Assembly (NCBI GenBank): GCA_024637035.1
Contig: JAGXFW010000016.1
Coordinates: 186,001 to 250,000, forward strand
Source of the DNA: Actinomycetes bacterium
GTDB lineage: Bacteria > Actinomycetota > Thermoleophilia > RBG-16-64-13
Length of the DNA stretch: 64,000 nt
Reading direction: 5' to 3'
Both the position numbers and the translations under genes were made by a program. Of the stretch, positions 9,179 to 42,734 are shown piece after piece. Below the pieces are notes generated by a model that saw only the letters and a list, made by a program, of their open reading frames with translations, was not told the origin of the DNA and ran no database searches. Position 1 is the stretch's first letter. Each line of letters begins with the position of its first letter.

Positions 9179-9733
9179 CTAGAGGCCGCCGATCTTGCCA
9201 GGGGGCCAATAGACCAGGAAGCCGTCGCCGATGATGCTATCCAGCTTCACGGGTCCGAAGACCCTGCTGTCGCCGCTTCGATTCCGGTTGTCGCCCATGG
9301 CGAACACGAAACCGTCGGGAATCACCTCTTCGGGAAACGCGCCCTCGATGAGGTCTTCCTTGAGATACGGCTCGACCTGCGCCTCACCGTTGACGTAGAG
9401 ATCGCCGTCCTTCACCTCGACATGATCGCCACCCACAGCGACCACACGCTTGATGTAGTCCTCTTCGGGGGCGATCGGCGGGTGGAACACGATGACGTCG
9501 CCACGCTGCGGTTCCCTGAACCAATAGACGAACCGACTCACCAAGACACGATCGCCGCGCTCGAGAGTTGGCTCCATCGACTCGGAGGGTATGTAGAAAG
9601 GCTTCACCACGAACTGCTGGATGAGCAGCGCGAGGATGAAGGCCGCGCCGACGATGAACACGACCTCGAGGAGGCTGCCGAGCAGAGATGACCCGGACTC
9701 CTGCGTGAGGGAGTGTCGCTTGAACGCAGTCAC
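9179..9733 (-). CDS. lepB: Signal peptidase I
   Basis: Membrane-bound peptidase that cleaves Sec and Tat signal peptides outside the cytoplasm. One N-terminal membrane helix (about residues 20-42) is followed by the catalytic Ser52 in PSESMEPTL, the general base Lys95 in DYIKRVVAVGGD, and the box E motif GDNRNRSGDSR near 148. The protein has 184 residues and ends with a typical WPPGKIGGL. The start is GTG at 9733. It is cotranscribed with rplS upstream and rnhB downstream. Confidence 0.96.
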   Translation of the reverse strand: MTAFKRHSLTQESGSSLLGSLLEVVFIVGAAFILALLIQQFVVKPFYIPSESMEPTLERGDRVLVSRFVYWFREPQRGDVIVFHPPIAPEEDYIKRVVAVGGDHVEVKDGDLYVNGEAQVEPYLKEDLIEGAFPEEVIPDGFVFAMGDNRNRSGDSRVFGPVKLDSIIGDGFLVYWPPGKIGGL

Positions 9734-9752
9734 GATAGACGCAGCCTTGGAG

Positions 9753-10097
9753 CTATACCCGCTTCTCCTTGACGCGCGCCTTCTTGCCGATCTTGTCGCG
9801 CAGGTAGTAGAGCTTCGCCCGCCGGACGTCGCCTATCGCCAGCACATCGAGCTTGTCGATCTTGGGCGAGTGCACGGGGAACGTACGCTCCACGCCCACA
9901 CCGAACGACTGCTTGCGCACGGTGAAGGTCTCGCGCACGCCCTCACCTTGGCGCTTGATGCAGATGCCCTGGAACATCTGGATGCGCTCACGGGTGCCCT
10001 CGATCACCTTGAAATGCACCTTGACGGTGTCGCCGGCTTTGAACCGCGGCACATCGCTCTTCAACTGCTTCTGCTCCAACACATCAATGACGTTCAT
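9753..10097 (-). CDS. rplS: 50S ribosomal protein L19
   Basis: L19 sits at the 30S-50S interface. The ATG at 10097 opens [19 protein letters not shown]; the conserved [27 protein letters not shown] and the basic end [16 protein letters not shown] follow. Its 114 residues match the family. The longer frame upstream has no homology. It lies 64 bases downstream of trmD, matching the conserved rpsP-rimM-trmD-rplS order. Confidence 0.97.
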
Positions 10098-10161
10098 CTT
10101 TATTCCCTCTGCCGCTTTGCCTGGGTATCCCAACGGAGTCCTACGAAGAAGACAGCGAAAC

Positions 10162-10908
10162 TTACTCCATCGGCGGGCCGAAATCAACCTCTCCGGCGCT
10201 TCCGGGAGGAGCTTCGCCCCGCGGAGCCGACCAACCAGAGCGGGAAGCCTGGGCTCCCCGCCACCGCGCGATGGCGGCATGATCACCGCTCAGAAGCACC
10301 TCGGGCACGCCCGCGCCCGCGAAATCACGTGGCCGCGTGTACTGCGGATACTCCACCGAGCCGTCCAGGCCTTCACTGAACGACTCCTCCACCAAGCTCT
10401 CCTGGTTGCCGAGCACCCCGGGCATCTTCCTTACCACCGCCTCCACCACCGCCAGCGCGGCGATCTCCCCCCCTGCCAGCACGTAGGGCCCGATCGACAG
10501 CTGCCCCGTGGCGAACAACGTCGCGATACGAGCGTCGAACCCCTCGTACCGCCCGCAGAGGAGGACGAAGTCACGCGACCCTCCCGCCAGGACGGCCGCC
10601 CGGCGATCGTCGAACGGTTCGCCCCCCGGTGCCAACAGATACACGTCTCTCTCGTCGCGCACCCGCTCCGCCGCAACTCCGAAGACCCCGGCGAGGGCCG
10701 CCGCGACCACGTCGACGCGGATCACCATGCCGGGGCCGCCGCCGTAGGGGCTGTCGTCGACCTGCCGGTGATTGAGCGTGCTGTAGTCGCGGATGTTGTG
10801 CACGGTGAGCGCCAAAGACTCGGACGCTTCCGCCTCGGCCACCGGATGCTGCCGCTTGAACCAGGTGAATGCGTCCGGCACCAGCGTGAATATGTCCACC
10901 CGTTTCAT
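10162..10908 (-). CDS. trmD: tRNA (guanine-N1)-methyltransferase
   Basis: Methylates G37 next to the anticodon of several tRNAs, preventing +1 frameshifts. The trefoil-knot SPOUT domain shows [12 protein letters not shown] (about 51-62), [13 protein letters not shown] (about 114-126) and [16 protein letters not shown]. The C-terminal domain starts around [19 protein letters not shown]. At 248 residues it is of normal length. An Ala/Gly/Pro-rich tail is the only unusual part. Confidence 0.96.
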
Positions 10909-38676: not shown

Positions 38677-38809
38677 ACCGTCATGTTCCCACAAACGCCT
38701 CCGCCCTGCGCACGTGCTACCATTCCCGGTCGGTTCTATTCGCGTAGCGATACATCAGCGCGGTCGGGCCGCCCGACCAGCCTCCACCTCGAGTAACCAG
38801 GAAAGCCGC

Positions 38810-40822
38810 ATGCCTACCACTCTTCCCGCTCGCATCCGCAACGTCGCGATCATCGCGCACATCGATCACGGCAAGACCACGCTCATCGACGCCATCTTCC
38901 GTGCCGCCCACGTGTTCCGAGAGAACGCCCGGATAGAAGAGCGCGTGATGGATTCTCATGACCTCGAGCGCGAACGCGGGATCACGATTCGATCGAAGCA
39001 CTGCACCGTCGAGTGGGCCGACCACCGCATCAACATCATCGACACCCCTGGGCACGCCGACTTCTCCGGCGAAGTCGAGCGAGTGCTCAGCATGGTCGAC
39101 TCCGTCCTGCTGCTCGTGGACGCCAATGAGGGCCCTATGCCTCAGACTCGCTACGTGCTCATGCGCGCCCTACGACTCGGGATGCGGCCCCTGGTGATCA
39201 TCAACAAGGCCGATCGCCCCAATGCCGACCCGCAACGCGCGCTGGACCTCACGTTCGACCTGTTCCTGGAACTCGGCGCCACCGACCACCAGGCCGACTT
39301 CCCCGTGCTCTACGGTTCGGGACTCGAAGGGTGGTTGGTTCGCGATCTCGATGCCGACGAACCACGGGGGATGGACGCGCTCTTCGAGGCGATCATCGCC
39401 GAGGTGCCCGCCCCGCACGTGGACCCCGAAGCGCCGTTCAGCATGCAGGTGTCGACCCTCGCGTGGAGCGACTATATCGGCCGCATCGGCTGCGGTCGCG
39501 TCCTCGGAGGCAGGCACCGCTTGGGAACGCCGCTCACCCGCATGGTCACGCGGTATTCGACGGCGGCGGCCGCTACCGATACGACCGGCGGCCCGGCGAT
39601 CTATCAGACTCTGGGAGCGAACGGCTCCGCGCAGACGCAGCTCCTCCAGCACGTCGCCCTCGACACCATAGGCAGTCCTTCCACGGCCCCCTTCGAGGTG
39701 ACCTTCACCGAGACCGTGCGTTCCACTCACCTGTGGGTGACGGACGGACTGGGACGAGCTGAGACCGAGGAGATCGGGGCCGGTGACATCGTGTGGCTCT
39801 CGGGGCCCGCGGATCTATCGATCGGCGACACCCTCTGCACTCCTCCCGTGGACGAGGCCCATGCACGCGCCGTCGCACTCCCCCCCTTGGAGATCGAAGA
39901 ACCCACCGTCTCGATGTTCTTCCTGGTCAATACCGGGCCCTTCGCCGGGAATGAGGGGCGCGCGGTGACCCTGCGCCAGATCCGGGATCGTCTCGAGCGC
40001 GAAGCTCGCGTCAACGTGGCGTTGCGTGTGGAAGACCTCGGTCGCTCCGACGGGCTGAAGGTATCGGGTCGAGGTGAGCTCCACCTGGCCATCCTCATCG
40101 AAGAGATGCGGCGCGAAGGCATGGAGTTGAACGTCTCGCGTCCAGAAGTGATCACGCACCGCGACGCTAAGGGCAAACTGCTCGAGCCGTACGAGGAGCT
40201 CACTATCGAGGTGCCGGAGGAATACCAGGGAATCGTCATCGAGAAGCTCTCCAGGCGCAAGGGTGACCTCACGGGAATGCAGAACCACGGTTCGGGCACC
40301 GCGAGGTTGGAGTTCCGCATACCGACTCGAGGGCTGCTCGGCTACCGTACCGAGTTCCTCACCGACACACGGGGCCTCGGCATCATGACGGCCCGCGTCA
40401 CCGGGTACGGGAAATGGGCGGGCGAAGTGGCCCATCGAGACCGCGGCTCGCTGGTCAGCATGGACACCGGTGTGGCCACAGGCTACCAACTCGAGAGCCT
40501 GCAATCGCGCGGCACGATGTTCGTCTCGCCGATGGACCGCGTATACGTAGGCATGGTGATAGGTGAGCACACCCGTCCCGACGACCTGGTATGCAACCCC
40601 ACCAAGACCAAGAAGCTCGGCAACTACCGCTCCGAGAACAAGGAGATCGACACCGGCCTCAAGGCGGTGCGCATCCTGAACCTCGACCAAGCGCTCGAAT
40701 GGATAGCTGACGACGAGTTGGTGGAGGTCACCCCCACTTCCGTCCGCATCCGGAAGACCCTACTCGACTTCGAAGACCGTCGTCGCGCCGAGAAGCGGTC
40801 GGCGGCCCTCGAACCCGCATGA
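38810..40822 (+). CDS. typA: Ribosome-associated GTPase TypA/BipA
   Basis: Translational GTPase that binds the ribosome under stress and cold and aids 50S assembly. The G domain shows [14 protein letters not shown] (about 14-27), [14 protein letters not shown] (switch I), [20 protein letters not shown] and NKADRPNA. Domains II, III, V and the TypA-specific C-terminal domain follow ([39 protein letters not shown]). 670 residues; the ATG at 38810 is chosen over an upstream frame lacking homology. The insert near residues 230-300 ([13 protein letters not shown] region) is longer than in E. coli. The selenoprotein gene starts 24 bases downstream. Confidence 0.94.
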
Positions 40823-40846
40823 CCCGTCCCACTGAGGGGAAGCAGC

Positions 40847-41506
40847 ATGACCACGCAGATCACGATCTACTCTGACTACATCTGACCCTTCTGCTACGTC
40901 GGCGCGGGCATCGTCGACAGGCTCAAGGAGGAGTTCGACATCGTTGATGAGTGGGTCAGCTACCAGATCCACCCGGAGACTCCACCGACCGGGCGTGACC
41001 TCGCAGACTACTTCCGAGGGAGGGATCTTGCGCCCATGCATGAGATGCTCCGCTCGCGCGCAGGGGAATTCGGCCTTCCGTTCTCGGCTCCTCAGCTCCT
41101 ATCGAACTCGCGACTCGCGATCCTGGCAGCCGAACACGCGCGCGACCTGGGCAGCCATGAGGCGCTCAACCGCCGATTGTTCACCGCGTACTTCGCGGAA
41201 GGCCTCGACATCGGCGACGTCGAAGTATTGGCCGCGTTGGGAGCGGAGATAGGCCTCGACCCAGCGGCTCTGCGTGGCTCTCTGGCCACCGACGCCCATG
41301 CCGACCGACTCAAGCGGGCCGAGCGCGAGGCACGGAGCTTGGGTATCACCGGGGTCCCCACGTTCTTCATCGCTTCCTCGGCGCACGAAGCGCAGTCGGA
41401 CACCGACGCGCTTCTCGGGGCTGGCATTCCATCCGACCCGACGCCGATCCAGATCGTCGGTGCTCAGCCGATCGAGGTGTTCCGGAACGCTCTCAGAGCA
41501 GGCTGA
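40847..41506 (+). CDS. FrnE/DsbA-family oxidoreductase with in-frame TGA: probable selenoprotein (U-P-F-C)
   Basis: Thioredoxin-fold DsbA-like thiol oxidoreductase of 219 residues if TGA at 40883-40885 is read as selenocysteine. From the ATG at 40847 (GAGGGGA upstream) it reads MTTQITIYSDYI-U-PFCYVG; FrnE-like proteins have SDYxCPxCYxG there, so the TGA falls exactly on the first active-site cysteine and gives U13-P-F-C16. After it the frame continues without break: SYQIHPETPPTGRDLADYF, the helical insertion domain, and the cis-proline loop GITGVPTFFI near the end. A hairpin with SECIS geometry follows the TGA. It is 24 bases after typA, probably co-transcribed. Without recoding, only a truncated frame from 41036 would be called. 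The alternative is a nonsense mutation or sequencing error. Selenium-insertion genes are not in the window. Confidence 0.8.
40886..40928 (+). promoter_or_regulatory. Candidate bacterial SECIS element
   Basis: Immediately 3' of the TGA, GUCGGCG (40898-40904) pairs with CGUCGAC (40912-40918) in a seven-pair stem with one G-U. It closes the seven-base loop CGGGCAU, whose second base is G at 40906, 20 bases after the TGA. A lower helix CCUU/AAGG (40887-40890 with 40925-40928) can extend it. Stem, loop size, apical G and distance fit the known bacterial SECIS pattern. Confidence 0.65.
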
Positions 41507-41600: not shown

Positions 41601-42734
41601 TCAGCTCTGCGGCGTGCCCATCACTTCTTCGAACGCCGCCTCGTCCATGAGCGCCCCTTCGGCCAGGAGCTGACGGAAGCGCAGGAAGTCGATGACGTCC
41701 TCGCCTGTCTGCTTGCGCGTGGAGAAAGCGTTGAAGCCCAGGTGCGCCTCGACCATCATGTTGGTGGCCAGCCAGTGGCGGTTCGGGCCCTTGGCCAGAT
41801 CCCAGAAGAACTTCTTCTTCATGCGGATCGCATCGATGGACATCTGCAGTGACTCGGGGAACAGGTTGGCAAAGCGCCACACGATGGTGTCCACTTCTTG
41901 ATCGAGGCGTGTGAAGTCGACCGAACAGCCGGCGACGACTTCCTTCGCCGCCACGGCCGCTTCGCCCTTCTTCATCTCGCCGTAGACGATCTCGCCGTCC
42001 TCGACATAGCTGTCGGTGTGCACGAGAGGGTTGCGCACCCACTCGCCGGCAGCGTTCCGCAGCACCGGGACAGCTTTCGAGATCAAGTTCTTGGCCTTCA
42101 TCTTGTAGGCGGACCACAGCTCACACGAGATGCAGTTCCACATCGCGTCTTCCATCGAGAGGAACCAGGGCAGGAAGTCGGTGGAACCGCCCACGGGCGC
42201 CGAGCCGTGCTTCGGGCCGGCTTGCCCGTAGATGGCCATATCGGAGGAGATGGCTAGGTCGCACGCCATGCCGATCTCCTGGCCGCCGCCGACACGCATC
42301 CCATTGACTCGACAGATCACCGGCTTCTTGCAGTTGAGGATCGAGTCGACCATCAGGTTGAACAGGTCCATGTACTCGCCGTACTCCTGGGGGCGCTTCG
42401 AGTAGTACTCGGCGTACTCGACGGTGTTGCCGCCGGTGCAGAAGGACTTGTCGCCGACCGAGGTGAACACCACGGCCACCACGCTGCGGTCGAGCGACGC
42501 GTTGGTGAAGGCGCCGATGACGCCCTTGACCATGCTCGTGGTGTAGCTGTTGTACTGCTTGGGGTTGTTGAGGGTGATCCTCGCCACGAACAGGCCCGGC
42601 ACCACCTCACCTTCGGGGCTGGTGAGCGGGGCTTTCTCGAACATGGTGCAGGGAGCCTCCGTGCCCCAGTACTGGGGACCGTGCAGGCTGTGGTCCTTCA
42701 AGTCGTTAGTCCTCGGCATCCAATCAAGACTCAT
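41601..42734 (-). CDS. bamA: 6-oxocyclohex-1-ene-1-carbonyl-CoA hydrolase (BamA/Oah)
   Basis: Crotonase-fold enzyme that hydrates and opens the ring of 6-oxocyclohex-1-ene-1-carbonyl-CoA to 3-hydroxypimeloyl-CoA in anaerobic benzoyl-CoA degradation. Recalled BamA blocks are reproduced closely: YWGTEAPCTMFEK, LNNPKQYNSYTTSMVKGVI, FCTGGNTVEYAEYYSKRP, CKKPVICRVNGMRVGGGQEIG, GQAGPKHGSAPVGGSTDFLP, SCELWSAYKMKAKNLISK and ANLFPESL. Its 377 residues equal the proteobacterial enzyme. The start ATG is eight bases after GGAGG. An operator-like motif overlaps the -35 of its probable promoter. No benzoyl-CoA reductase is in the window. Confidence 0.9.
   Translation of the reverse strand: MSLDWMPRTNDLKDHSLHGPQYWGTEAPCTMFEKAPLTSPEGEVVPGLFVARITLNNPKQYNSYTTSMVKGVIGAFTNASLDRSVVAVVFTSVGDKSFCTGGNTVEYAEYYSKRPQEYGEYMDLFNLMVDSILNCKKPVICRVNGMRVGGGQEIGMACDLAISSDMAIYGQAGPKHGSAPVGGSTDFLPWFLSMEDAMWNCISCELWSAYKMKAKNLISKAVPVLRNAAGEWVRNPLVHTDSYVEDGEIVYGEMKKGEAAVAAKEVVAGCSVDFTRLDQEVDTIVWRFANLFPESLQMSIDAIRMKKKFFWDLAKGPNRHWLATNMMVEAHLGFNAFSTRKQTGEDVIDFLRFRQLLAEGALMDEAAFEEVMGTPQS

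Follow-up and report, generated by a model that had tools for sequence, protein, structure and literature searches.

A gene that a stop codon seems to interrupt is very probably that of a full-length FrnE/DsbA-type redox protein with selenocysteine in its active site

INTRODUCTION

The selenoprotein literature speaks of "DsbA-like" proteins rather than of FrnE, and COG2761, under which such proteins have been filed, is the COG of FrnE. A DsbA-like selenoprotein family with a UxxC motif was reported under this COG in the Sargasso Sea survey and has thus been known since 2005 (PMC1088965). DsbA-like selenoproteins were counted in 41 organisms in 2016 (PMC5029168), and UxxC selenoproteins of the Pfam family PF01323 were listed in 2026 (PMC13188914). 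The FrnE of Deinococcus radiodurans is described as a cytoplasmic disulfide reductase/isomerase tied to cadmium and diamide tolerance; its regeneration is aided by a C-terminal CXXXXC motif, which is found in many FrnE proteins but is missing in those of S. roseofulvus and D. maricopensis (PMC8945050). In bacterial selenoprotein genes, the UGA codon for selenocysteine (Sec, U) is followed by a hairpin, modeled as a bacterial SECIS element (bSECIS) with a small apical loop, a G within the first two loop positions and a distance of 16-37 nt from the UGA (PMC13188914).

Here, a seemingly stop-broken gene in a stretch of 64,000 nt of actinomycetotal DNA (the window) is compared with these systems. 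It is almost certainly the gene of a cytosolic FrnE/DsbA-type thiol-disulfide oxidoreductase, in which Sec is predicted to replace the nucleophilic active-site Cys (U13-P-F-C16). The first-pass annotation of the window had proposed a Sec-containing thiol oxidoreductase; the Sec machinery, the conservation of the codon, the covariation of the hairpin and the fold, all computed in this analysis along with the gene itself, support that reading. Since UxxC DsbA-like selenoproteins are already established, the gene is a further member of a known family and introduces no new principle.

THE GENE AND ITS READING FRAME

The features of the gene are as follows.

40834 to 40839, + strand: likely Shine-Dalgarno sequence GAGGGG, read directly from the sequence, 7 nt upstream of the ATG at 40847
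40847 to 41506, + strand: predicted selenoprotein gene, FrnE/DsbA-type oxidoreductase; 219 residues, Sec at residue 13, TGA stop (from translation with TGA as Sec, Pfam DSBA, PDB 5cnw and the codon reading in the family)
40883 to 40885, + strand: predicted Sec-UGA codon for residue 13, the nucleophile that opens the UPFC motif (from the family codons)
40892 to 40894, + strand: TGC codon for Cys16, the presumed resolving residue of UPFC and the sole Cys of the protein (invariant column C16 in alignment A1)
40898 to 40904 and 40912 to 40918, + strand: stem of the predicted bacterial SECIS apical hairpin, with the loop CGGGCAU at 40905 to 40911 (from fold, covariation and a synonymous-codon test)
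41036 to 41506, + strand: ATG open reading frame of 156 aa, the fragment expected from a standard gene caller

Re-reading of the sequence returned the frame that had been described at the outset, including its good ribosome site: from the ATG at 40847, codon 13 is TGA, 206 sense codons follow, and a terminal TGA stands at 41504-41506, making 219 codons with one internal TGA. With TGA read as Sec, the product starts MTTQITIYSDYIUPFCYVG; both SDYI-U-PFCYVG around the active site and the cis-Pro in GVPTF (P171) are as first noted, and the TGA falls exactly where relatives have the leading Cys of CP[F/W/Y]C. Frame length is not counted as evidence because in the GC-rich window an equally long open run (at least 206 codons) follows 37 of 756 TGAs (5%). 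Consequently, the case is built on homology and on conservation among relatives.

The 156-residue fragment starting at 41036 exists as had been expected. Ordinary gene calling would leave this fragment, which is devoid of the active site, in place of the full-length selenoprotein gene; database entries for the gene are likely truncated, and NCBIfam release 20.0 contains no model covering the protein.

CODON CONSERVATION AND SEC/CYS HISTORY

Homologues were gathered from GTDB-based genome collections. In the 79 family genes read, the window's included, the codon aligned with codon 13 is TGA in 60, TGC in 15 and TGT in four, and never TAA, TAG or any other codon; the sample is biased toward query-like sequences, and the Sec share does not estimate a frequency. 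Two of the loci (L018 and L009) apparently represent one genome, whose TGA is counted twice. The claim that the TGA replaces precisely the first Cys of the CxxC pair is borne out in 79 of 79 genes, which have Cys or predicted Sec at this position and not the variety of stops that would accompany decay. Forms with TGA are found in Actinomycetota, Thermodesulfobacteriota and Chloroflexota. Invariant columns of the alignment include D10, U/C13, P14, C16 and the cis-Pro, P171.

Against a congener with 78% identity, dN is 0.05 and dS 0.38 over the first 50 codons past the TGA, which are thus under purifying selection; the 12 codons ahead of the TGA differ by one synonymous and one nonsynonymous change, too few for a test. 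Near the hairpin, dS is 0.38 versus 0.83 further on, which fits an additional constraint on the RNA. Sequencing error was considered as a source of the TGA and rejected, as the codon is common to the congener and 57 further relatives and the region is under purifying selection.

On a family tree built without the active-site residue, at least five changes between Sec and Cys are found, all forced by starred branches. Among 61 relatives, selB scores above the cut-off in 18 of the 19 genomes that encode a Sec form versus four of the 12 that have a Cys form only (p=0.0005), and does so in all six genomes behind loci L009-L014; the Sec-form genome G034 (86% complete) gave no selB match above the cut-off. 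One Cys (TGC) homologue, L022 in genome G008, has the Sec form L025 as its sister and keeps an 8-bp SECIS-like hairpin at the same place; it looks like a recent change from Sec to Cys. Two genomes of another family encode the protein twice, as a UPYC (Sec) and a CPFC (Cys) paralogue: L053/L058 in G277 and L054/L057 in G385.

THE SECIS HAIRPIN

A seven-pair hairpin of SECIS geometry with a seven-base loop and an apical G had been placed 20 bases downstream of the TGA. The stem, the 7-nt loop and its G stand, and the distance needs correction: the stem GUCGGCG/CGUCGAC starts 12 nt past the UGA, and the loop CGGGCAU follows at 19 nt. The position of the loop and the G at its second position agree with the bSECIS model (PMC13188914).

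Taken by itself, the window hairpin is not significant: 20 of 200 dinucleotide shuffles fold equally well, and single-sequence folding energy was set aside as evidence; the synonymous-codon test gives p=0.08. Significance is reached only across the family. In an ungapped alignment of 29 Sec genes, picked for a hairpin in the window's register (other Sec subfamilies use neighboring registers), 89% of cells pair, and none of 500 shuffles matches the covariation score. Pair 22-30 is seen as CG, AU and GC, pair 21-31 as CG, GC and UG, and the covariation vanishes once the partner is shifted by 1-3 columns. When synonymous codons are randomized, the mean z is 1.24 for Sec genes (n=56) versus -0.09 for Cys genes (n=19; p=3e-5), i.e., SECIS-like hairpins stronger than those of randomized sequences characterize the Sec genes as a group and not the Cys genes. 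Two relatives (L023, L024) have lost part of the stem in the window's register and seemingly use a neighboring one. An Rfam scan of the region returned no match; divergent bSECIS elements need not be covered by Rfam.

THE SELENOCYSTEINE MACHINERY OF THE GENOME

The genome around the window (3.57 Mb in 34 contigs, rated 100% complete) has a complete selenocysteine system. The first-pass annotation had made its reading hinge on selA, selB, selC and selD, and all four are present: selA (549 bits) adjoins selB on contig C26, which also carries the tRNA-Sec gene (72.6 bits, above the Rfam cut-off; ARAGORN agrees, calling tRNA-SeC(tca)), and selD itself contains a single in-frame TGA, which falls in its canonical Sec site, GSGUACK. 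The gene for the alpha subunit of formate dehydrogenase, fdhA (837 bits), likewise has one in-frame TGA.

G000:C7:14250-15176 (L051): selD with one in-frame TGA (GSGUACK)
G000:C17:101839-103884 (L106): formate dehydrogenase alpha with one in-frame TGA

The genome therefore holds at least two further predicted selenoproteins of classical type. With SelB and Sec-tRNA-Sec available, Sec is probably what is inserted at the UGA of the oxidoreductase gene.

PROTEIN FAMILY, FOLD AND PROPOSED MECHANISM

Assignment to the FrnE/DsbA type, made at first from motifs, holds by domain, by sequence match and by fold. Pfam DSBA (PF01323) covers residues 4-216 (E=1.3e-28; 100.5 bits against a gathering score of 25.6), with the predicted Sec in UxxC. 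A sequence search of the PDB puts D. radiodurans FrnE first (5cnw, E=9e-21). An AlphaFold2 model, for which 46 window and locus sequences were used, reaches a mean pLDDT of 93.8 and a pTM of 0.88, and D. radiodurans FrnE accounts for all of its top five structural matches. The N-terminal CP[W/F]C of FrnE appears as UPFC at residues 13-16, with Sec for the first Cys. The C-terminal CXXXXC of the D. radiodurans protein (DR_0659) has no counterpart, there being no Cys after residue 16, and the protein is therefore FrnE-like but not of the DR_0659 type. Since neither this protein nor any of the 57 Sec forms checked has CXXXXC (two of 19 Cys forms do), regeneration must differ from that of D. radiodurans FrnE. 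The fold opens with a strand at residues 3-9, leaving no N-terminal signal peptide.

The protein most likely reduces or isomerizes disulfides in the cytosol by selenol/thiol chemistry; the direction of catalysis is presumed to be that of a reductase/isomerase, and by analogy with D. radiodurans FrnE the protein may take part in the response to oxidative or metal stress. In the mechanism proposed from these findings and from known thioredoxin-fold chemistry, SelB and Sec-tRNA-Sec would recode the UGA, guided by the hairpin, which begins 12 nt further on. U13 sits beside cis-Pro171 where helix 1 begins, and its selenol would attack substrate disulfides; Cys16 would resolve the mixed selenenylsulfide to give a U13-C16 bond, and a cellular reductant, possibly the thioredoxin system or a low-molecular-weight thiol, would then reduce this bond again. 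A broader proposal, that the FrnE-like oxidoreductase of this actinomycetotal class is largely a selenoprotein lineage without CXXXXC, in which Sec may replace the accessory Cys pair and Sec and Cys have switched repeatedly, is tentative and, on balance, doubtful.

GENE NEIGHBORHOOD

Two genes flank the predicted selenoprotein gene in the window.

38714 to 40822, + strand: typA/bipA (TIGR01394, 784 bits, above cut-off), 24 nt upstream of the selenoprotein gene
41601 to 42734, - strand: 6-oxocyclohex-1-ene-1-carbonyl-CoA hydratase (TIGR03200, 547 bits, above cut-off)

The gene had been thought to be co-transcribed with typA. The short gap, the common strand and the same typA-selenoprotein gene order in the congener (L100/L009) make this plausible for this genus only, as typA does not adjoin the family gene in the other relatives examined. 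The hydratase gene, which belongs to anaerobic benzoyl-CoA degradation, lies downstream and convergent, an order also seen in the congener (L100 10550-11698). Inspection of 13 loci showed no single partner gene to be common to the family.

Genes resembling ferritin, pirin, hemerythrin and thioredoxin reductase were noticed by eye near family members, the window's ferritin alone having been checked; these neighbors weakly suggest redox stress. In L094 (genome G012, contig C57), a Sec homologue at about 9700-10400 on the - strand is convergent with selB, whose frame ends some 1.4 kb away, and has a hemerythrin-like gene (by eye) directly upstream. Just downstream of a Chloroflexi Sec homologue, a thioredoxin-reductase-like gene (by eye; L013 5920-6841) is apparently split into two frames, possibly by a frameshift or an assembly error, and possibly encodes a redox partner.

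ALTERNATIVE EXPLANATIONS

The simplest alternative takes the TGA as a true stop, which would make the gene a pseudogene or the 156-aa product from 41036 a separate, shortened protein. That product does have its own ATG, and TGA ends ordinary genes of this genome, including typA and the oxidoreductase gene itself. Against these points stand the TGA at the same codon in 60 family genes of three phyla, with no TAA or TAG, and the strong purifying selection on the 50 codons that separate the TGA from the internal ATG; moreover, the fragment lacks the first beta-strand of the fold as well as the active site. A true stop is strongly disfavored, to the point of being hardly credible, and the conserved TGA together with purifying selection led to rejection of the pseudogene. 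Decoding of the UGA as a residue other than Sec, e.g., as Cys by an unusual tRNA or by near-cognate readthrough, would account for the Cys found in relatives that lack the TGA. Such decoding is exceedingly improbable given a full Sec system, further TGAs within selD, at its canonical Sec site, and within fdhA, a TGA form that tracks the presence of selB, and a SECIS-like hairpin that is selected in TGA forms only.

A third alternative concerns function and is compatible with Sec: the protein could be an isomerase or transferase like 2-hydroxychromene-2-carboxylate (HCCA) isomerase or GST kappa, acting in degradation of aromatic acids. Both are fold neighbors, and the adjoining gene encodes an enzyme of the benzoyl-CoA pathway (TIGR03200). 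HCCA isomerase and GST kappa are not known to have a CxxC pair. By contrast, the redox positions U/C13 and C16 are both invariant in the family, the FrnE structures are clearly nearest in sequence and fold, so that the closest relatives are not isomerases or transferases without CxxC, and the neighboring gene lies on the opposite strand and is seen only in the window and the congener. An isomerase or transferase is very unlikely; a FrnE-like selenol/thiol oxidoreductase is the preferred reading.

COMPARISON WITH KNOWN SYSTEMS

HCCA isomerase and GST kappa share with the window protein a DsbA-like fold with a helical insertion but are farther from it in sequence and fold than FrnE. The Rcas_1661-family/DsbG-like (seleno)lipoproteins (NF041057) are also thioredoxin-fold UxxC selenoproteins; the window protein scores 23.9 bits with that model, below its cut-off of 190, and is not a member. 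D. radiodurans FrnE (DR_0659; PDB 5cnw, 5co3, 5xwh) has the same fold (TM 0.81, 26% identity), the same position of the CP[W/F]C active site and the same cytosolic type without a signal peptide, whereas the window protein has predicted Sec in place of Cys22, no C-terminal CXXXXC and one Cys only.

Likened by domain and description, the DsbA-like selenoproteins of form 1 (PMC1088965, PMC13188914) agree with the window protein in the Pfam domain, the Sec position in UxxC, the existence of Cys homologues and a bacterial SECIS directly downstream. The family assembled around it, in which Sec and Cys have replaced each other repeatedly and one Cys relative keeps a SECIS-like hairpin, is useful for annotation and for studies of Sec gain and loss. 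Relative to the published DsbA-like selenoproteins, the window adds a member from an actinomycetotal genus otherwise known here only through a metagenome-assembled congener.
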